A stretch of DNA of 64,000 bases from Streptomyces musisoli (GTDB lineage: Bacteria > Actinomycetota > Actinomycetes > Streptomycetales > Streptomycetaceae): the NCBI RefSeq assembly GCF_016741855.1, contig NZ_JAERRH010000012.1:124001-188000 (forward strand), written 5' to 3'. The position numbers and the translations under genes are program-made. The notes under the pieces were generated by a model, which was given only the letters and a program-made list of their open reading frames with translations, did not search any database and was not told where the DNA came from. This document shows positions 28,506 to 60,863 of the stretch, one piece after another; within the stretch, counting starts at the first letter, position 1; each line of letters opens with the position of its first letter.

Positions 28506-31500
28506 TCAGCCCAGGTATGCCTCGAAGTCCCAGTACGGGCGGACCCGTTGGCGGGCCGAGAGGGTGTGCGGGTGCTGGGCGCCCAGCGTGCGGGTGAGGG
28601 CCAGCAGGGCGTCCTCCTCCAGCTTGCCGGCCTCCTCCTGCTCGTGGGCCGCCCGCAGATCCGCGGCGAGCGCCACCTGACCGGACAGCGTGAGCGGATG
28701 CTCGTGCCCCAGCATGTGCCGGGACCGGCGCAGGGTCTCCCGGCTCAGCTCCACCGCGTCGTCGATCCGGCCGTTGAAGTTGCGCGCGCCGGCCGCGTTG
28801 AGGGCGCAGCCCAGGACCCAGGGGTGGTCCGCGCCGAGCGTCGCGGTGAGACCGGCGAGCGCCGACTCGAACATCGACAGCGCCTCGGCCCGCTCGCCCG
28901 CGGACTGCATCACCAGCCCCGTGTTGGAGAGCATGCCGGTGGCCACGGGGTGTGCGGGGCCGAGCAGTGTCCGGTAGCCCGACTCCGCCTCGTCGATGAG
29001 GTCGCGGGCCTGGCTGAGGTCGCCGTGTTCGCGCAGGAAGTTGCCGTAGTTGGTGAGGAACGCGAGGGTGCGGTAGTGCTCGCGGCCGTGCAGCTGGATC
29101 AGCTGGTCCAGCAGGCTGGCCATGGACGGTCCGACGTCCGGCGCGTGCCCGCCCTCGCGGCGCCGGCACATGGCCAGCTGGGAGCGGGCTTCCAGGGTCT
29201 GCGGGTGCTGCGGGCCGAGCACCTGCACATGGAGCCGCACGACCGGTTCCTGCCGGGCCAGCGCCTCCCGGTAGCGGCCGAGCAGCCGGAGGCTGTGGGT
29301 GACCGCGTTGCCGGAGTGCAGGGTGTTGATGTGCCGGGCCCGCAGCACGCTCTCGCCGCGCGCCAGGGTCTCCAGGTCGAGGTCCAGCGCCTCGGCGTAC
29401 CGGCCCAGCATGCGCAGGGTGACGGCGAGGTTGTGCCGGGCGACCAGGGTGGGGGGCTCGTCCTGGCCGAGAAGCCGCTCGTTGCCGTCGAGGACCTCGC
29501 GCTGGAGGTCGTACGCCTCCTGGTAGCGGCCCAGGGAGCGCAGGCCGGACGCGATGGCGCTCTTGCTGAGCAGTTCGCCGATCTCGTTGCGCCGGGGGGC
29601 GGCCCGCAGCTGTTTCAGCACGCCACGGTGCAGCTCGTACAGCTCGCGGAACCGGCCGCTGTTGCGCAGCATGTTGCCCTCCTGGGTGGCCAGGTCGAGC
29701 ATCGGCTGGTCGATCGGGTCCATGAAGCGGGTCCACTGCTCGCGCACCTGCTGGGCCAGTTCCAGACCGCCGCTGTACTCGCCGCTGCGGGTGCAGTACC
29801 GCAGGCAGTTCAGGACCAGCTCCTGCACGCGTGGCTGGCGGCTCTCCAGGGCGCCGGAGGGCTGGAGGTGGGGCAGCAGTTCGGCGTAGCGCGGCCAGTT
29901 GCGGCTGTCGGCGGGGTTGCCCGGGTCGGCCTCGGCGAGCAGGGTGCGCACCGCCCGCCGGTGCAGGTCGCCGCCCGTGTCGCCGGTCAGCTTGGAGACG
30001 ATGTCGTGGACCAGGCGGTGCATGTGCACCGACTCCTGGTGGGGGCCGGCCTCGGCGGCGAGCGGCCCGCGGGTCTCCCGGGTGAGCACCGAGTAGTTGA
30101 CCAGGGTGTCCAGGGCCCGGGTCCAGGCAGGCAGGTCGGCGGACATCCAGCGCAGTTCCTCGGGCAGCTCGGCGCGCGGGTAGGCGCGGATGAGGCCGAG
30201 CGGGATGCGGCCGGGGGCGAAGGAGGTGCACAGGCCGAGCACGTCGATGGCCTGGGGCTGGGAGCGGCGCAGCCGGTTGAGCAGTATGGCCCAGGAGGTG
30301 AGGGAGGACTGCGGGAAGCCCTCGCCGGTGACGGGCTCGTCGACGGTGGACAGCCGCCGTTCGCGGACCATCCGCAGGTACTCGTCCACCTCCATGCCGG
30401 ACTCGCCGAGCCAGGAGGCGGCCTGCACCAGCGGCAGCGGCACGTCGCCGAACTCGGCGGCCACCTCGTCGGCCTCCTGCGCGCTGATGTGCGGGGCGCG
30501 GCGCATGAGGTAGCCGGTGGACTCGGGCCGCAGGAACGCGGGGATCTCCAGCACGTCGGTGTGCTCGCTCCAGCCGCGGTTGCGGGAGGTGATCAGGACG
30601 TGCCCGGTGCCCTGCGGGAGCAGCGCCGTCACGGCCTCGATGTCGTCCCAGCCGTCGAAGACGAGCAGCCAGTTCGCGTACGGCTCGCCGCGGCGCAGGG
30701 CGTTGCGGACCGCGCGGATGCGTTCGCCGGGCTCGCTGCCGATGCGCAGGCCGAGTTCGACGGCGAGTTCGCCGAGGCGGTCGCGCTGGATGGTGCGGTC
30801 GTCGCTGTTGACCCACCACACCAGGTCGTAGTCGGTGCTGAAGCGGTGCGCGTACTCGGCGGCCAGCTGTGTCTTGCCGATGCCGGACATGCCGACCAGC
30901 GTGCAGGCGGCGGCACCGCGCTCGGCGTCGGCGAGCCGCTGGTGGAGTTCGCCCAGCAGGTCGTCGCGGCCGGTGAAGCGCGGGTTGCGGCGCGGCACCT
31001 CGCCCCAGATCTCGCACCGCTCGTCCGGGAAGCGGATCCGGCCCGGGGTCGCGCGCGGGCGGGTGAGCGGCTCCAGGCCGAGCCGGCGCAGCAGGCGCTC
31101 CTCGGCGGCCTCCTCGCTCAGCGCCCACAGGCTGGCCGGTTCCAGTACGGCCGTCGCGGGCAGCAGCGGCCGGTTGGTGAGGTTGACCGCGGCGAACCGG
31201 TCGGCGTGCGCGGCGACGAAGCCGCGCAGCGCGTCGTTCCACTCGCCCGGCGGGCGCGGGCCCAGCTCGAAGAACCAGTCGTTGAGGACCAGCAGCACCT
31301 TGCCGCTGGCCAGCAGCAGATCGCCGAGCGAGTCCTCCAGCGCCACCTCGCGCGGCGGGTCCCAGCGCTGGAGTGTGGCCCGGTGTCCGTGCCGCTCCAG
31401 GCACTGCGCGATCCACGCCGCCCACGAGCGGTGGTACCCCGGGAAGACCACGAGGACATGCTCGGGTGCCACCGCGCCGTTCGCGCCCGGCCGCCGCTGT

Positions 31501-31508
31501 TCCGCCAT
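28506..31508 (-). CDS. TIR-like/NB-ARC/TPR protein, FxsT type
   Basis: Large STAND NTPase of 1000 residues. ATG 31508 has AGGGAG 5 bases upstream. N-terminal TIR-like domain (15-145: VLVVFPGYHRSWAAWIAQCLE, then LQRWDPPRE and GEWNDALRGF); NB-ARC domain from about 178 with Walker A GMSGIGKTQ (206-214) and Walker B-like WLLVFDGWDD; about 450 residues of TPR repeats built on LGPxHPxTL and GRYxEALxL. This layout is that of FxsT, the TPR component of FxSxx-COOH peptide systems, and of signal-sensing STAND switches. It is the last gene of the minus-strand cluster, 83 bases after the HExxH gene. The trigger and effect are unknown. Confidence 0.85.
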   Translation of the reverse strand: MAEQRRPGANGAVAPEHVLVVFPGYHRSWAAWIAQCLERHGHRATLQRWDPPREVALEDSLGDLLLASGKVLLVLNDWFFELGPRPPGEWNDALRGFVAAHADRFAAVNLTNRPLLPATAVLEPASLWALSEEAAEERLLRRLGLEPLTRPRATPGRIRFPDERCEIWGEVPRRNPRFTGRDDLLGELHQRLADAERGAAACTLVGMSGIGKTQLAAEYAHRFSTDYDLVWWVNSDDRTIQRDRLGELAVELGLRIGSEPGERIRAVRNALRRGEPYANWLLVFDGWDDIEAVTALLPQGTGHVLITSRNRGWSEHTDVLEIPAFLRPESTGYLMRRAPHISAQEADEVAAEFGDVPLPLVQAASWLGESGMEVDEYLRMVRERRLSTVDEPVTGEGFPQSSLTSWAILLNRLRRSQPQAIDVLGLCTSFAPGRIPLGLIRAYPRAELPEELRWMSADLPAWTRALDTLVNYSVLTRETRGPLAAEAGPHQESVHMHRLVHDIVSKLTGDTGGDLHRRAVRTLLAEADPGNPADSRNWPRYAELLPHLQPSGALESRQPRVQELVLNCLRYCTRSGEYSGGLELAQQVREQWTRFMDPIDQPMLDLATQEGNMLRNSGRFRELYELHRGVLKQLRAAPRRNEIGELLSKSAIASGLRSLGRYQEAYDLQREVLDGNERLLGQDEPPTLVARHNLAVTLRMLGRYAEALDLDLETLARGESVLRARHINTLHSGNAVTHSLRLLGRYREALARQEPVVRLHVQVLGPQHPQTLEARSQLAMCRRREGGHAPDVGPSMASLLDQLIQLHGREHYRTLAFLTNYGNFLREHGDLSQARDLIDEAESGYRTLLGPAHPVATGMLSNTGLVMQSAGERAEALSMFESALAGLTATLGADHPWVLGCALNAAGARNFNGRIDDAVELSRETLRRSRHMLGHEHPLTLSGQVALAADLRAAHEQEEAGKLEEDALLALTRTLGAQHPHTLSARQRVRPYWDFEAYLG

Positions 31509-31591
31509 CGCCGCTCCCTGCTCCCGCCGCGGCTGCCGGCCTCCTGGGCAGTCGCATGCACAACGTAACGCAATAATGCCTCTACGGAGCG

Positions 31592-32923
31592 TCATCCGGG
31601 CGGCCGGACGGCCACCCCGAGGTACGCGTGGTGGTACCCCATCTGCCGGACGAACTCCCGCCCGTACGGGGTCAGTTCATCCGAATCGGTCAGGAGGGAC
31701 AAGGCCTCGGCGACCTGCTCCCGGCACGTCTCGAACCGTTCGGCGGCGCGCCGCCGCCACACCCAGGCGGGTCCGGTGCGGGCCCGCCACCACAGGTCCA
31801 GCAGCGCCAGGTGCGCATAGGCGCCCTGGAGTACGCCGGGGACCGGGCGCGGGTCCCGCCGCCAGCCCACCCGGTGCAGGCTGCCGCCGGGCCGCCACAG
31901 CGGGACCATTTCGTCCAGGACGGCCAGCTTGGTGTGGTGCGTCTCGTGCACCAGCAGCTCGGCCAGCTCCCGCCGGTCCGCCGGCAGCTGGGCCAGGACG
32001 GCGCCGGGCGCGGTGCGTACGGTGGCGCTGAGCGGCGGTCCGGTGGCCGCGGGCGGTGCGAGCGGGACGACGGCGCGGACGAGCGCGCCGGTCTCGGCGG
32101 CGCGGGCGGGGTGGGTCGCGGCCAGCAGGGCGTGCGCGTCCCGCCACCGGGCGGCCCACGCGGCATGGTCGGAGTAGGGGCGCTCGGCCGCGGGCAGCGC
32201 CGCCGGTCCGATGCCGCCCGCGGGCACCCGGTGGGGGTCCACGTCGTCGAGTACGGCGGTGCCGCCGGGCAGCGTGTGCAGCGCCGACCAGGCGAGGGCG
32301 CCGTCGGCGGTCCAGCGGGTGCCGGGCCCGGCCGGGGCGGAGCCGGGCAACAGCAGGGTCTGGCCCGCGCCGTCGGTGACGCGTACGGCTCCGGCCCGGA
32401 CGGACAGCCGGACCCGGCCGCGGGCGGAGCGCAGCAGCCCGATGCCGGGCAGCGGCAGGCTGCCGGCCGGCAGCGGGCGGGTGGTGGTGAACCGGCAGCC
32501 GGCGCGCAGTGCGGCGGCCACGGCCACCGCGCCCAGGCCGGCGAGGGCCTCCCGGAAGTCCGGGCCGTCGGGCGCGGCGAGCGCCGTGGCCAGCCAGGCG
32601 CCGGTCGTCGGGTAGTCGAGTACGGCGCGTACGGCCGGGGCGTCGGTCAGCTCGGCCCGCTCCAGCAGCGCCCAGTCGTCCTCGAAGCGTCGCCGGGTCG
32701 CCGCGGGCAGGGTGCCGCGCGCGGTGTCGACCCGGACCAGCAGGGACTTCAGCAGCAGCATCCGCCGGGCGTGCAGGGCGGCGCCGAGGGCCGTGGTGGC
32801 CGCGGGCAGCGGCCGGGTGCGGGCCAGGGCGGTGAGGATCGCGGGCGGGACCGGGCCGGAAGCGGGGGCGGCCGGGGCGGGCGGCCGTATGTCTCCCGCG
32901 GGTCCGACGGCTGGCGGGGTCAT
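31592..32923 (-). CDS. HExxH-motif peptide modification enzyme (peptide beta-hydroxylase-like)
   Basis: Protein of 443 residues. The start ATG 32923 overlaps the stop of the small gene upstream (ATGA), which decides the start. HETHH at 326-330 with the following NxxL-like helix (TKLAVLDEMVPLWRPGG) matches the HExxH domain found as the C-terminal part of, or beside, FxsB radical SAM enzymes. This family is now associated with 2-oxoglutarate-dependent peptide hydroxylation. The N-terminal 300 residues are Ala/Leu-rich and helical. No radical SAM motif (CxxxCxxC) exists in this protein or its neighbours. The likely substrate is a peptide, perhaps the small protein encoded just upstream; this is inference. 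Confidence 0.8.
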   Translation of the reverse strand: MTPPAVGPAGDIRPPAPAAPASGPVPPAILTALARTRPLPAATTALGAALHARRMLLLKSLLVRVDTARGTLPAATRRRFEDDWALLERAELTDAPAVRAVLDYPTTGAWLATALAAPDGPDFREALAGLGAVAVAAALRAGCRFTTTRPLPAGSLPLPGIGLLRSARGRVRLSVRAGAVRVTDGAGQTLLLPGSAPAGPGTRWTADGALAWSALHTLPGGTAVLDDVDPHRVPAGGIGPAALPAAERPYSDHAAWAARWRDAHALLAATHPARAAETGALVRAVVPLAPPAATGPPLSATVRTAPGAVLAQLPADRRELAELLVHETHHTKLAVLDEMVPLWRPGGSLHRVGWRRDPRPVPGVLQGAYAHLALLDLWWRARTGPAWVWRRRAAERFETCREQVAEALSLLTDSDELTPYGREFVRQMGYHHAYLGVAVRPPG

Positions 32924-51982: not shown

Positions 51983-52612
51983 GTGGAACTGGCCTATTAC
52001 TCGGATTACGCCGTCCGTCTCGTCAACAGCGAGGAACCGGCCCGGGGCAAGGACGCCCTGACCACGGTCGAGGCCGTCCGCGACCTGTTCGGCGTCAACG
52101 CGTCGGCCGCCCGCCGCGCCACCGACGCCGACGTCACACGCTTCCGCTCGGTCCGGGCGCGGCTGCGCGGGGTCTTCGAGGCCGCCGACCGGGGCGACGA
52201 GACCCTGGCCGTGGACCTGCTGAACTCACTCCTGCTGGAGTTCCCGGTCAGCCCGCAGATCTCCGGGCACGACTTCCGCGACGAGGACGGCCGCCCGCTC
52301 TGGCACATGCACCTGGCCGACCACCCCTCCAACGCCACCGCCGGCTACGCGGCCATCGCGGCGATGGGCCTCGCCTTCCACCTCACCGAGTACGGCGTCG
52401 ACCGGCTCGGACTGTGCCAGGCGCCCCCCTGCCGCAACGCCTACCTGGACACCTCCACCAACCGCTCCCGGCGCTACTGCTCGGACCGCTGCGCCACCCG
52501 CGCCAATGTGGCCGCCTACCGGGCCCGCAAGCGCCTGGAGGCCGACCGGTCGGGCAGCAGCGGCCTCGCCGCCGAGAGCGCCCAGCGCAGCAGCGCGAGC
52601 GGCGAACGCTGA
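51983..52612 (+). CDS. CGNR zinc-finger (ABATE-domain) regulator
   Basis: Protein of 209 residues from GTG 51983. The N-terminal 135 residues are the ABATE-type domain (DYAVRLVNSEEP, LRGVFEAADRG) and the C-terminus holds the zinc finger CQAPPCRNAYLD ... RRYCSDRCATRANVAAYRARKR. Such proteins are treated as putative stress-related regulators. The 3' end overlaps the convergent sodX gene by 97 bases, an unusually long overlap. The last 25 residues are Ser/Ala-rich and probably disordered. Confidence 0.88.
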   Translation: MELAYYSDYAVRLVNSEEPARGKDALTTVEAVRDLFGVNASAARRATDADVTRFRSVRARLRGVFEAADRGDETLAVDLLNSLLLEFPVSPQISGHDFRDEDGRPLWHMHLADHPSNATAGYAAIAAMGLAFHLTEYGVDRLGLCQAPPCRNAYLDTSTNRSRRYCSDRCATRANVAAYRARKRLEADRSGSSGLAAESAQRSSASGER

Positions 52613-52950
52613 CCGGCCCGGACCGGCCGGAACCGGAACCACGCCTTGCCGAGGATCAGTTCCTCGGGCACCACCCCGTAGTCCGTGCTGTCCCCGCCCG
52701 CGTAGGGGTTGTCCCCGAGCACCCACCAGCCGCCGTCGCGCCGCTCCACGGCCCGCTTGACCACCAGCAGGTCCTGCTGGAACGGATGGCGCAGGACCAC
52801 CACGTCACCGGGCCTGACCGCACCCCCGTAGCGCACCAGCAGCTGGTCCCCGTGGTGCAGCGTGGGCACCATGGACGGGCCCGTCACCTCGGCCAGCCCG
52901 AAGGGCGCCGCCGCCCTTCCCCGCTCGGTCTCCTGCGACAGCTCCGGCAT
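52516..52950 (-). CDS. sodX: nickel superoxide dismutase maturation protease
   Basis: Signal-peptidase-I-like protease of 144 residues. ATG 52950 has GGGGAGG 8 bases upstream; longer in-frame starts lack this. Ser/Lys dyad: S26 in GPSMVPTL and K65 in VVKRAVERRDGGWWVLGDN. No N-terminal membrane anchor, as in the SodX group that removes the NiSOD propeptide. It is divergent from sodN with 145 bases between, a conserved pairing. The C-terminal 35 residues are a basic extension overlapping the CGNR gene on the other strand. Confidence 0.9.
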   Translation of the reverse strand: MPELSQETERGRAAAPFGLAEVTGPSMVPTLHHGDQLLVRYGGAVRPGDVVVLRHPFQQDLLVVKRAVERRDGGWWVLGDNPYAGGDSTDYGVVPEELILGKAWFRFRPVRAGQRSPLALLRWALSAARPLLPDRSASRRLRAR

Positions 52951-53095
52951 CTCCGGCACCTCCCCGGTCCGTTCCTCCACCAGTCTCAGTCTCACCCTGG
53001 ACTTTTGTCCTAAGCCCTAGGGGGCAGCCGAGAAATCGCCTTCCTCAGGGAGTAATGTCGCACCTGAGAAGACGATCACGAGGAAGGAATGCTCC

Positions 53096-53491
53096 ATGCT
53101 TTCCCGCCTGTTTGCCCCCAAGGTCAAGGTCAGCGCCCACTGCGACCTGCCCTGCGGCGTGTACGACCCGGCCCAGGCCCGCATCGAGGCGGAGTCGGTG
53201 AAGGCCGTCCAGGAGAAGATGGCCGGCAACGACGACCCCCACTTCCAGGCGCGCGCCACTGTCATCAAGGAGCAGCGCGCGGAGCTTGCCAAGCACCACG
53301 TCTCCGTCCTGTGGAGCGACTACTTCAAGCCCCCGCACTTCGAGAAGTACCCGGAGCTGCACCAGCTGGTCAACGACACCCTGAAGGCCCTCTCGGCCGC
53401 CAAGGCGTCCACCGACCCGGCGACGGGCCAGAAGGCTCTGGACTACATCGAGCAGATCGCCAAGATCTTCTGGGAGACCAAGCAGGCCTGA
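53096..53491 (+). CDS. sodN: nickel superoxide dismutase
   Basis: Ni-SOD precursor of 131 residues. The 14-residue propeptide MLSRLFAPKVKVSA is followed by the nickel hook HCDLPCGVY (mature His1, Cys2, Cys6). The rest is a four-helix bundle that forms a hexamer. It disproportionates superoxide in the cytoplasm. Maturation requires cleavage by SodX, encoded divergently. In Streptomyces, sodN is expressed with nickel and a 3'-UTR fragment silences the iron enzyme sodF; a matching 3' region is annotated separately. AGGAAGGA precedes the start by 8 bases. Confidence 0.97.
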   Translation: MLSRLFAPKVKVSAHCDLPCGVYDPAQARIEAESVKAVQEKMAGNDDPHFQARATVIKEQRAELAKHHVSVLWSDYFKPPHFEKYPELHQLVNDTLKALSAAKASTDPATGQKALDYIEQIAKIFWETKQA

Positions 53492-56301: not shown

Positions 56302-57444
56302 TCAGCTGGTGCGCCGGGTGACGAACTCGGCGAGCGCCAGCAGTCCGCCCGCCGCATCGGGATCGGGCACCGCCCGGGCCAGCTCCTGCATGGCCTGCGC
56401 CATCCGGTCGGCCGCCTCGGCCTGCGCCCAGTCCCGGCCGCCGGCGCGCTCCACCGCCAGCGCCGTACGGGCGATCTCCTCGGCCCCCGCCCCGTCCTGC
56501 GGGTACGGCTTCCCGTACAGCTCGGCGAGTTCGGCCGCCGCCGGGGCGCCGGAAGTGAGCGCCGCCACCACTGGCAGGGACTTCTTGCGGGCGGCGAGAT
56601 CCGCGCCGGCCGGCTTGCCGGTGCGTCGCGGGTCGCCCCATATGCCGATGACGTCGTCGATCAGCTGGAAGGCGAGCCCGGCCTGGCGGCCGAAGCCGTC
56701 CAACGCGGCCACGTCCTCCTCGCTCGCGCCCGCGTAGAGCGCGCCGAGCGCACAGGCACAGCCCAGCAGGGCGCCCGTCTTGGCCTCCGCCATGGCGAAC
56801 ACCTCGTCCAGGGTGACCGCGTCCGGCGCTCGCCGCTCCAGGTCGGTGTCCACGTGCTGCCCCTCGCACAGCTCCACGACACAGGCCGCGAGCCGGGCCG
56901 CGGCCGGGGCGGAGGCCGGGTGCGGGTCGTCGGCTAGCAGCCGCAGGGCCAGCGCCTGGAGGGCGTCCCCGGCGAGGATCGCGTCCGGTACCCCGAAGAC
57001 GCTCCAGGCTGTCGGCCGGTGCCGACGGCTGGTGTCCCGGTCCATCACGTCGTCGTGCAACAGCGTGAAGTTGTGCACCAGTTCGACCGCCACCGCCGCC
57101 CGGACCGCGGCCGTCCGGGCCGCAGGCCCGCCGAGCGCGGCCGCAGCCGCCAGCACGAGCGCCGGCCGTATGGCCTTGCCCGCGTTGCCCGCCGCAGGCG
57201 TGCCGTCGGCTTGCTCCCAGCCGAAGTGGTAGAGCCCGACCCGGCGCATGGCGCCGGGCAGCGACTCGATGGCCGCCCGCAGCTCCGGGTCGACCAGGGC
57301 CCGGGTGCGCTCCAGTTGTGCCGCCGCCTCCTGCCCGTCGAGCGGACCGGCGACGGCCCCGGCCCCCTCGTGCGGCTCCCCCGCCGTGCCGGCACGCGGC
57401 ACACCGGGGGAACGCTCGTCGGTCTCCGTCATGAACTCGGCCAT
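56302..57444 (-). CDS. polyprenyl diphosphate synthase, probable encapsulin cargo
   Basis: Trans-isoprenyl diphosphate synthase of 380 residues. ATG 57444 has GAGGGGG upstream. Residues 1-45 are a Gly/Ala/Pro-rich disordered extension absent from ordinary synthases. First Asp-rich motif DDVMD (131-135) with HRHRPTAW after it, EGQHVD, KTGALL, and second motif DDVIG (263-267, the last Asp replaced by Gly). It makes a linear isoprenoid diphosphate such as GPP to GGPP; chain length cannot be read safely. The Family 2B encapsulin gene lies immediately upstream on the same strand (112 bases). Such synthases are the reported cargo of this encapsulin group, loaded through the disordered N-terminus. 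Confidence 0.92.
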   Translation of the reverse strand: MAEFMTETDERSPGVPRAGTAGEPHEGAGAVAGPLDGQEAAAQLERTRALVDPELRAAIESLPGAMRRVGLYHFGWEQADGTPAAGNAGKAIRPALVLAAAAALGGPAARTAAVRAAVAVELVHNFTLLHDDVMDRDTSRRHRPTAWSVFGVPDAILAGDALQALALRLLADDPHPASAPAAARLAACVVELCEGQHVDTDLERRAPDAVTLDEVFAMAEAKTGALLGCACALGALYAGASEEDVAALDGFGRQAGLAFQLIDDVIGIWGDPRRTGKPAGADLAARKKSLPVVAALTSGAPAAAELAELYGKPYPQDGAGAEEIARTALAVERAGGRDWAQAEAADRMAQAMQELARAVPDPDAAGGLLALAEFVTRRTS

Positions 57445-57556
57445 GCCTCCCCCTCGCCAGGTCCGCGAGGGCCGGCGTCACCGGCCCGGCCGGACGCATA
57501 CCCCGAGGGCCTACCCGCCACGACGGGCGGAGACACGGCCGCGACGTGCGGAAACG

Positions 57557-58963
57557 TCACCTCCACCGGCCGATCTCGACGTTCTCCAGCACACCGAGCG
57601 CGTCCGGCACCAGGACGGCGGCCGAGTAGTACGCCGTCACCAGGTACTTGATGATGGCCTGCTCGTTGATGCCCATGAAGCGGACGGACAGGCTCGGCTC
57701 GATCTCGTCCGGGATGCCGGACTGCCTGAGGCCGATGACGCCCTGCTCGGACTCGCCGGTACGCATGGCGATGATCGAGGTCGTACGGGCCTCACTGATC
57801 GGGATCTTGTTGCACGGGTAGATCGGCACCCCGCGCCAGGTGGGGATGCGGTTGCCGGAGATGTCGATCGTCTCGGGCACCAGCCCCCGCTTGTTCAGCT
57901 CACGCCCGATCGCGGCGATCGCGCGCGGGTGGGCCAGGAGCAGCTTGGTGCCCCGGCGGCGACTGAGCAGCTCGTCCAGGTCGTCCGGGCTGGGCACGCC
58001 GTCGTGCGGCTGGATCCGCTGGTCGTACTCGCAGTTGCTGAGCAGACCGAACTCCGGGTTGTTGACCAGCTCGTGCTCCTGGCGCTCCTTCAGCGCCTCG
58101 ACCGTGAGCCGCAACTGCTGCTCGGTCTGGTTCATCGGCTGGTTGTAGAGGTCGGCGACGCGTGAGTGGATGCGCAGGACGGTCTGGGCGATGCTCAGTT
58201 CGTACTCGCGGGGCCGCGCCTCGTAGTCCACGAAGGTGTGCGGGATGTCGGGCTCGCCGGAGTGGCCGGCCGCCAGCTCGACCTCCTTCTCGCCGTACTT
58301 GTTGGTGCGCTGCTCGGGGATCGCGCGCAGCTGTTCGAGGTGCGCGCGCAGGGAGTCGGAGCGCTCCGCGACCTGCTCGAAGTCCTGGCGGGAGAGGATC
58401 AGCACCGTGCTCGCGGTGTCCGCACGGACGGTGTACTCCCAGATGGCCTCCGGGTCGAGCAGCGACTGGTCGCCGAAGTAGGCGCCGTCGGCGAGTACTC
58501 CGAGGACGGCGTCGTCGCCGTAGGGACCGGTGCCGATCTTCTCCACCCGGCCATGGGCGAGCAGATAGACCTCGTTCGTCTGGTTGCCGAAGTCGGCGAT
58601 CACCTCGCCGGGCGCGAAGTCGCGCTGGCGGCAGCGCCGGGCCAGCTCCGTCAGCACCTCCTCGTCCTCGTACGACCGCAGGGCCGGGAGTTCGCCCAGT
58701 TCCGCCGGGATGACCTCCACCTGGTCCCCGGTCTTCACGAAGGTGATGCGGCCGTCGCCGACGGCGTAGGTCAGCCGCCTGTTCACGCGGTAGGTGCCGC
58801 CCTGGACGTCCACCCAGGGAAGCGTGCGCAGCAGCCAGCGGGAGCTGATCTCCTGCATCTGTGGAACGGACTTGGTGGTGGTGGCCAGGTTCCGCGCTGC
58901 CGCCGTCCCGAGGGACTGCTGCGGCTTGCCCTGATCCGTGCGGACCTCTTCGCCTACCGACAT
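57557..58963 (-). CDS. Family 2B encapsulin shell protein with inserted cNMP-like domain
   Basis: HK97-fold nanocompartment shell protein of 468 residues. ATG 58963 has GGGAGG 10 bases upstream. The N-terminal arm ([28 protein letters not shown]) is typical of the SrpI/Family 2 group. A cyclic-nucleotide-binding-like domain is inserted at about 100-215 ([24 protein letters not shown]). The HK97 core resumes with [30 protein letters not shown] and ends [29 protein letters not shown]. The phosphate-binding cassette lacks the usual Arg. It probably assembles an icosahedral shell housing the adjacent prenyl synthase. This gene is often mis-annotated as a Crp-like regulator. Confidence 0.93.
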
Positions 58964-59259
58964 AAGGAAATGACCTCCCGTGTATGCCCGGTGCCGAACT
59001 TGCACCGGGCACCGGTCTCATGTCCGACCCTTCCAGCACGGTGCGTAGGCACGCCATTACCCGAAAGAGCGGGAATGGATCATCTGATTACCGGGCACAA
59101 AGAGGGACCTCATCCGACCTCGGCGGAATGCGCGTCCTGTCCTGATCGGCTCGCACAGCGTACGAACGATGTGTTCCGAGACGTCCGTTTTAGGTAGAAG
59201 CAGCCAGGACAGACGGCCGCGACCGGCGGCCGGACGGGCACGGCACGAAGGAGTCGGGC
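58964..59259. other. divergent region between the encapsulin and amidase genes
   Basis: 296 bases. It carries a perfect 9-bp hairpin close to the encapsulin ribosome-binding site and a shorter inverted repeat CCCG-N6-CGGG near 59061. I cannot assign promoter elements with confidence. Confidence 0.5.
58986..59010 (-). promoter_or_regulatory. 5'-UTR hairpin upstream of the encapsulin gene
   Basis: Arms gcccggtgc (58986-58994) and gcaccgggc (59002-59010), loop of 7. On the minus strand it ends 22 bases before the ATG and just before the GGGAGG site, a position where a structure or a bound protein could gate translation or transcription. Confidence 0.55.
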
Positions 59260-59853
59260 ATGGCCTCACCCATGTCGGCGGACGGATTCCTGGACGCGCT
59301 TCGGGCGGAGGGCGTCACGGTCGTCGAGGTCGGCGACTGGCGGCAACACAACCGCAATCACAAGGGCCCCTGGGGCCCCGTCCACGGCGTGATGGTCCAT
59401 CACACGGTGACCAGCGGCAGCGAGCGCACCGTGGCGCTGTGCCGGGCCGGCTTCCCGGACCTGCCGGGGCCGCTGTGCCACGGCGTGATCACCAAGGACG
59501 GCAAGGTCCATCTGATCGGCTACGGCCGCACCAACCACGCCGGGCTCGGCGACGACGAGGTGCTGCGCGCGGTGATCGCCGAGAAGGGGCTGCCGCTGGA
59601 CAACGAGGCGAACACCGACGGCAACCGGCACTTCTACGGCTTCGAGTGCGAGAACCTCGGCGACGGGGAGGACCCGTGGCCGCAGGAGCAGCTGACCGCG
59701 ATCCAACAGGTGGCCGCGGCGCTGTGCCGCCATCACGGCTGGACGGAACGGTCGGTCATCGGCCACCGGGAGTGGCAGCCGGGCAAGGTGGACCCTCGGG
59801 GGTTCACGATGTCGTGGCTGAGAGAACGGGTCGCCGAACGCCTGAAGGGATGA
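59260..59853 (+). CDS. N-acetylmuramoyl-L-alanine amidase / PGRP-like protein
   Basis: Amidase_2-type protein of 197 residues, ATG 59260 behind GAAGGAG. Zinc-site residues are seen in VMVHHTVTSG and GHREWQPGKVDPRG (Asp in place of Cys, a known variant), and an aromatic GFECEN segment fits the family. It has no signal peptide, which is unusual for a cell-wall enzyme; it may act after lysis, from a phage-like origin, or be exported otherwise. It is divergent from the encapsulin gene. Confidence 0.88.
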   Translation: MASPMSADGFLDALRAEGVTVVEVGDWRQHNRNHKGPWGPVHGVMVHHTVTSGSERTVALCRAGFPDLPGPLCHGVITKDGKVHLIGYGRTNHAGLGDDEVLRAVIAEKGLPLDNEANTDGNRHFYGFECENLGDGEDPWPQEQLTAIQQVAAALCRHHGWTERSVIGHREWQPGKVDPRGFTMSWLRERVAERLKG

Positions 59854-59939
59854 CGGCGCCGGGGTGCGGACCGGGACGGACGTCGGCCGGGTGCGGCCGT
59901 GCCACTGCCCGGTTCCCCGCACCGGGCGACAATGAAGCC

Positions 59940-60863
59940 GTGACCAGCCCCGACCCGCTCGCTCCCAGCCTCCCCTCCCCCCTCCAGGAAATACGCGACG
60001 ACCGTTTCCGCCGGCGCGGGCTGCGACTGCTGCTCAAGCGCGACGACCTGATCCACCCCGACCTCATCGGCAACAAGTGGCGCAAGCTGGTGCCGAACAT
60101 CGCGGCGGCAGACGGCCGCGCCCTGGTCACCTTCGGCGGGGCCTACTCCAACCACCTGCGGGCCACCGCCGCCGCGGGCCGTCTGCTGGGCCTGGCGACC
60201 ACGGGCGTGGTCCGCGGCCAGGAGCTGGCCGACCGCCCGCTCAACCCGTCCCTGGCCCGGTGCGCGGCCGACGGCATGCGACTGCACTTCATCGACAGAT
60301 CGACATATCGCCGCAAGACCGAGCCGGACACCCTGGCCGGGATACTCCGCGCGGCCGGCGCCGCGGGGGCGTACGTCGTGCCCGAGGGCGGCAGCAACGC
60401 CGAGGCGGTGCGCGGCTGCCGCGCCCTCGGTGCGGAACTGCGCGGCCACGCGGACGTCGTCGCGGTCGCCTGCGGCACCGGCGGCACCCTGGCCGGCCTC
60501 GCCGCCGGGCTGGCGGCCGGCCAGCGGGCGCTCGGCATACCGGTACTGAAGGGCGGGTTCCTGGAGGCCGACGTACAGGCCTTGCAGGAACGTGCCTTCG
60601 GTGCCCGCGGCGGTACCTGGTCGCTGGACGACCGCTTCCATTGCGGCGGCTACGCCCGCACGACACCCGACCTGGACGCATTCGCACGGGACTTCGAGCA
60701 GCGGCACGGACTGCCCGTGGAGCGTCTCTATGTCGCCAAGTTGCTGCACGGACTCGTCACCCTCGCGGAGGAGGGCGCCTTCGCGCGCGGGACCACGATC
60801 GCGGCCGTCGTCACCGGACGTCCGTTCCCCGAGTCCCCCGACAGCCGCATCCCCGAGCGCTAA
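59940..60863 (+). CDS. PLP-dependent D-cysteine desulfhydrase / ACC deaminase-like enzyme
   Basis: Fold-type II PLP enzyme of 307 residues from GTG 59940. The PLP lysine is in DLIGNKWRKL, followed by TFGGAYSNHLRATAAAGRLLGL; the phosphate loop is ACGTGGTLAGLAAG. The family converts D-cysteine to pyruvate, H2S and ammonia, or 1-aminocyclopropane-1-carboxylate to 2-oxobutyrate; the choice cannot be made here. It follows the amidase by 86 bases and overlaps the convergent antiporter by 4 bases. Confidence 0.9.
   Translation: MTSPDPLAPSLPSPLQEIRDDRFRRRGLRLLLKRDDLIHPDLIGNKWRKLVPNIAAADGRALVTFGGAYSNHLRATAAAGRLLGLATTGVVRGQELADRPLNPSLARCAADGMRLHFIDRSTYRRKTEPDTLAGILRAAGAAGAYVVPEGGSNAEAVRGCRALGAELRGHADVVAVACGTGGTLAGLAAGLAAGQRALGIPVLKGGFLEADVQALQERAFGARGGTWSLDDRFHCGGYARTTPDLDAFARDFEQRHGLPVERLYVAKLLHGLVTLAEEGAFARGTTIAAVVTGRPFPESPDSRIPER

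Follow-up and report, generated by a model that had tools for sequence, protein, structure and literature searches.

The minus-strand gene pair described here, located in a 64,000-nucleotide stretch of the Streptomyces musisoli genome (G000:C24:124001-188000, hereafter the window), probably specifies an EshB-type Family 2B encapsulin with a single shell protein, whose lumen houses a synthase making a C15-C20 prenyl diphosphate, as judged from sequence comparison and from analogy with characterized homologues. The operon type itself is already known. It was published in 2021 (PMC8346489, PMC8049743), there are named NCBIfam models for both genes, and the pair in the window belongs to this type and is found across the genus. 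About 900 such operons are described, 888 of them in Actinobacteria (PMC8346489), and a polyprenyl diphosphate synthase is the most frequent neighbour of Family 2b shells (PMC8049743). The type is among the commonest encapsulin systems, and its cargo, product and purpose are described only as predictions in the literature examined. Our comparisons of sequences add that the N-terminal extension of the synthase does not diagnose a cargo, that one species has lost the shell while keeping the synthase, and that the tag of the terpene cyclases is absent from the synthases yet matches the arm of the shell. Positions of the features are collected in Table 1.

In the preferred reading, sixty shell proteins would assemble into a T=1 particle of the HK97 fold, about 28 nm across as in the solved homologues, with the cNMP-like domains sitting on the outer face above the two-fold pores. 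The next gene encodes the synthase, which would be retained in the lumen, most likely as a dimer. Its substrates, IPP and an allylic diphosphate, would pass in through the pores and presumably be converted into a C15-C20 prenyl diphosphate. The likely purpose would be a dedicated prenyl diphosphate pool, kept apart from the housekeeping synthases during development. A 28-nm T=1 shell was reported for a Family 2B homologue (PMC12407261), and eshB of S. coelicolor was up-regulated during development (PMC3878966).

Table 1. Features of the shell-synthase locus in the window.
Feature	Position	Strand	Basis
Family 2B encapsulin shell, EshB type (most likely), 468 aa	57557..58963	-	NF041163, PF19307 + PF00027, identity to 9bhu, adjacency of the synthase
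cNMP-binding-like insertion domain, about aa 89-215 of the shell	58319..58699	-	PF00027 at aa 114-201
Conserved N-terminal segment of the shell, aa 14-32	58868..58924	-	LGT[SA]AAR match to the published terpene-cyclase cargo motif
Intergenic gap, 112 bp; the synthase ATG is preceded by a purine-rich ribosome-binding site GAGGGGGAGG	57445..57556	-	sequence
Polyprenyl (isoprenyl) diphosphate synthase, predicted cargo, 380 aa	56302..57444	-	NF041169, PF00348, 3nf2 fold, Asp-rich motifs
Disordered N-terminal extension, synthase aa 1-35	57340..57444	-	AlphaFold2 pLDDT about 25

The shell protein and its relatives

The shell protein scored 770.9 bits (cut-off 400) against NF041163, the NCBIfam model for Family 2B shells. 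Residues 216-466 corresponded to the SrpI-like Pfam domain PF19307 (452 bits), and the PF00027 domain lay ahead of it, colinear with 9bhu. By these matches the protein has a SrpI/Family 2-type HK97 shell domain (PF19307, NF041163, 9bhu) with a cNMP-like domain inserted in the E-loop (position of PF00027, colinearity with 9bhu). The best solved relatives were 9bhu, 9bix and 9bje. Identity to 9bhu was 63% over 454 aligned residues, reaching 71% in the C-terminal HK97 part and 47% in the insertion; furthermore, SrpI (6x8m) was matched at 287 bits. Our own AlphaFold2 model of the shell, built on an alignment of 25 near-identical sequences, had a pLDDT of 50.6, and because a model of such low confidence speaks neither for nor against HK97, the fold was assigned from homologues and rests on the 9bhu identity and the 6x8m match. 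Icosahedral self-assembly would likewise be expected by analogy with the solved homologues. Among relatives, pairwise identity was highest at residues 14-40 (95%); it was 91% in the C-terminal HK97 part and 78% in the insertion domain, the most variable folded part. Both ORFs of the pair had a coding-type GC content by codon position.

The names attached to the solved shell relatives, 'Crp/Fnr family transcriptional regulator' and 'Nucleotide-binding protein', bear out the remark of an earlier note on this DNA that homologues are annotated as a regulator. Such names would fit a different reading, in which EshB is a nucleotide-binding protein acting on development or ppGpp and its shell form is incidental. 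However, Pfam detected no DNA-binding domain, the HK97 and cNMP-like parts being its only matches. Cyclic-nucleotide sites usually carry a Glu and an Arg; the pocket of the window shell has an Asp in place of the Glu, lacks the Arg where it would be expected, and departs from the customary phosphate-binding pattern. This altered pocket agrees with the published lack of cyclic-nucleotide binding by Family 2B insertion domains (PMC12407261). We therefore regard a regulator as very improbable, even with the history of eshA and eshB in development on its side (PMC3878966, and titles of cited references).

Several known systems can be set beside the locus. In S. coelicolor, eshB is SCO5249, a paralogue of eshA (SCO7699; PMC3878966), and SCO5250, the following gene number, was listed with isoprenoid metabolism (PMC7494193). 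SCO5249/SCO5250 have the same pairing as the genes in the window, a probable correspondence drawn from gene order, paralogy and published descriptions. A second Family 2B shell was found in the same genome on contig C57 (L013 1689-5146). It has the same shell architecture, was 58% identical to the window shell and has downstream, in place of the prenyl synthase, genes for a terpene-cyclase cargo-family protein and a geranyl diphosphate 2-C-methyltransferase, indicating an EshA-type 2-methylisoborneol operon; the arrangement matches the eshA-mibA-mibB order described in S. venezuelae (PMC6428758). Since the EshA-type shell of the genome sits in this separate operon, the window shell is most likely of the EshB type. 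According to PMC12407261, 9bhu is a Family 2B encapsulin of S. griseus, and 9bje and 9bix are Sl-Enc1 and Sl-Enc2 of S. lydicus. The S. griseus shell shares the architecture of ours, as the S. lydicus proteins share the shell family and the CBD insertion. However, the S. lydicus two-component system combines two shell genes with a xylulose kinase, whereas the window has one shell gene and a prenyl synthase (PMC12407261).

The synthase and its locus

The synthase scored 488.8 bits against NF041169 ('Family 2 encapsulin cargo polyprenyl transferase', cut-off 450) and 196.8 bits against Pfam PF00348. In the AlphaFold2 model, the pLDDT was above 90 over most of the core. The predicted structure matched geranylgeranyl diphosphate synthases and 3nf2, a polyprenyl synthetase of S. 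coelicolor, which was the closest solved fold (TM 0.84 by query length and 0.94, 45% identity). The Asp-rich motifs were DDVMD at residues 131-135 and DDVIGIWGD at 263-271, conserved in 31 relatives; the latter is a DDxxG variant conserved in the family. Two Asp-rich motifs and an all-helical fold place the protein among the isoprenyl diphosphate synthases, with a predicted activity. Phe126 lies five residues before DDVMD, which has no insertion. A Phe at position -5 from the first Asp-rich motif, together with an uninserted motif, is the pattern of archaeal type-I geranylgeranyl synthases, and on these two features our guess for the product is a C15-C20 prenyl diphosphate. The N-terminal sequence of 3nf2 matched not the shell-linked synthase but a paralogue on contig C1, beside two SQS_PSY genes, and 3nf2 was therefore rejected as the S. 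coelicolor partner of EshB.

Most of what the earlier note had claimed for the pair held up, its coordinates included: a minus-strand shell gene with HK97-type and cNMP-like parts (PF19307, PF00027, NF041163, 9bhu), an isoprenyl diphosphate synthase with a disordered N-terminus downstream of it (PF00348, NF041169, the low pLDDT of residues 1-35), and, through the curated models NF041163 and NF041169, a Family 2B operon with a prenyl synthase. The pair resembles the Family 2B and polyprenyl transferase operons of Andreas and Giessen 2021 (PMC8346489; NF041163 and NF041169), in which a cNMP-insertion shell directly precedes a synthase with a disordered N-terminus. Those operons are likewise actinobacterial, with a synthase lacking a tag motif (PMC8346489). 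Nothing essential differs, though the disordered extension has about 35 residues here and 50-100 are quoted for the disordered domain of the family (PMC8346489).

In every one of the 64 full-length Streptomyces loci, and for 29 of the 30 best genome hits, shell and synthase were adjacent and in the same order; with the gap given in Table 1, the synthase gene thus immediately neighbours a Family 2B shell gene, as expected of an NF041169 cargo. Nearly all of the nearest named loci came from Streptomyces. Shell identity among relatives was 83-98%. Flanking genes (an amidase, an Na/H exchanger, a glyoxalase-like gene and Ni-SOD) recurred in many of the Streptomyces loci, and because they recur between species, the pair is, on comparison of these loci, a vertically inherited, syntenic chromosomal locus and no mobile cluster. 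An HK97 fold and a sub-threshold hit to an epsilon-15 capsid model (31.6 bits, cut-off 75) could also be expected of a phage capsid remnant lying beside an unrelated synthase. However, the encapsulin model was matched above its threshold, the checked flanks (amidase, Na/H exchanger, Ni-SOD, glyoxalases) were chromosomal and conserved between species, and the shells are as similar among relatives as stated above; the curated match and the synteny refute such an origin, to which we give practically no weight.

Is the synthase the cargo?

Based on adjacency and the published pattern, the synthase is likely to be the shell cargo. A plausible, though clearly less probable, alternative is a shell that forms but has a main cargo other than the synthase: shared transcription and a common pathway would link the two genes, the synthase would act outside or be loosely bound, and the lumen would hold something encoded elsewhere. 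The earlier note had taken the disordered extension as an argument for the cargo, and this argument failed to discriminate. Extensions were counted up to the conserved VDPxLR motif from starts picked by ribosome-binding site, which makes the lengths approximate. Their median was 51 residues in shell-linked synthases versus 39 in those whose fetched stretch contained no shell, a group that includes truncated loci. In a short-extension clade of about ten shell-bearing species, the synthase started only about 25 residues before VDPxLR. Synthase paralogues without a shell mostly had 25-80 residues before the motif, for example the copy on C1. Because a shell-bearing clade is almost without the extension and shell-less paralogues carry similar ones, the extension is, by these sequence comparisons, not diagnostic of a cargo, and both observations favour the alternative.

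Two further observations point the same way. The synthases have no tag in common, in line with the published account; for example, the cyclase tag LGT[SA]AAR occurred in none of 114 synthase ORFs, and pairwise identity among relatives was only 29% at residues 9-33 versus 85% in the core, so that the N-terminus probably holds no simple targeting tag. Furthermore, in one species (G076) the synthase is kept and the shell is lost. On the other side, shell and synthase are neighbours almost without exception in the genus, and the genes for other Family 2 cargos, which have disordered termini, immediately adjoin those for the shells (PMC8346489). An experimental prenyl-synthase cargo of an encapsulin was not found in the literature covered, which was that outside subscription. 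Encapsulation of the synthase in the EshB-type shell remains our preferred reading, and natural shell loss and the short-extension clade offer comparison cases for the cargo question.

At the locus of G076 (L127 6010-7324, G076:C2), the shell gene was lost while the synthase, the amidase and the Na/H exchanger were kept in otherwise conserved synteny, and the synthase was 70% identical to that of the window. Among 150 relatives surveyed, 71 had a synthase scoring above the NF041169 cut-off, and for four over-threshold synthases outside the genus (L128, L129, L130 and L132) the 10-14 kb fetched contained no shell. The 'encapsulin cargo' label of NCBIfam can thus over-call and is by itself no proof of encapsulation.

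The start of the synthase gene was conserved in another manner. The first 24 nt of the ORF (ATGGCCGAGTTCATGACGGAGACC, 57421-57444, minus strand) were conserved among relatives at the nucleotide level beyond codon bias. The first eight codons were conserved and their silent sites nearly frozen, with Thr6 encoded by ACG in 43 of 44 sequences versus a baseline of 30%, which suggests a constraint on the DNA or on the translation start. MAEFMTET, the peptide encoded there, was set aside as a targeting peptide in view of these frozen silent sites. The ribosome-binding site GAGGGGGAGG upstream was also kept in relatives.

The luminal loop of the shell read GNRIPT in the long-extension clade versus GGHHVPA-like in most of the short-extension clade. 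The correlation between loop and extension length was rejected as independent evidence, as it reflects a single clade split.

The shell arm and the neighbouring genes

The published tag of terpene cyclases, GPTGLGTSAAR, closely matched the nearly invariant N-terminal segment SLGT[AS]AAR of the shell, which falls within its most conserved stretch. Some EshB shells carried the exact 7-mer LGTSAAR of the tag, and GPTGLGTSAAR itself, with small variations, was present in seven of the fetched cyclase loci. This likeness is not noted in the encapsulin papers, in the text of them available to us; the coverage was limited to that literature. One explanation, which we offer tentatively and consider unlikely, is that Family 2B shells load terpene-cyclase cargo through mimicry of their own N-terminal arm, the tag and the arm docking in the same groove; the tagless prenyl-synthase cargos would be held by another, unrecognised route, perhaps the luminal loop. 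The motif common to the cyclase cargo and the arm of the shell points to a specific docking site that could be examined.

No terpene cyclase and no UbiA was matched within the window, as the earlier note had said of cyclase and prenyl acceptor genes near the pair, and a consumer of the synthase product was likewise not found there. The nearest terpene cyclase, an epi-isozizaene synthase (NF045483, 723 bits; G000:C24:204944-205534), lies outside the window, about 22 kb past the pair. The long plus-strand ORF at 59169-60863 was not a single gene: it overlaps an N-acetylmuramoyl-L-alanine amidase read in another frame (59260-59853), followed by a PLP-dependent enzyme in the second half. The gene for the nickel-containing superoxide dismutase (53096-53491, plus strand) adjoins a short signal-peptidase-like gene on the opposite strand (52516-52995). 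Farther away, at 28506-31595 on the minus strand, a 1029-aa protein with TIR, NB-ARC and TPR domains resembles an NLR-type immune or regulatory protein.
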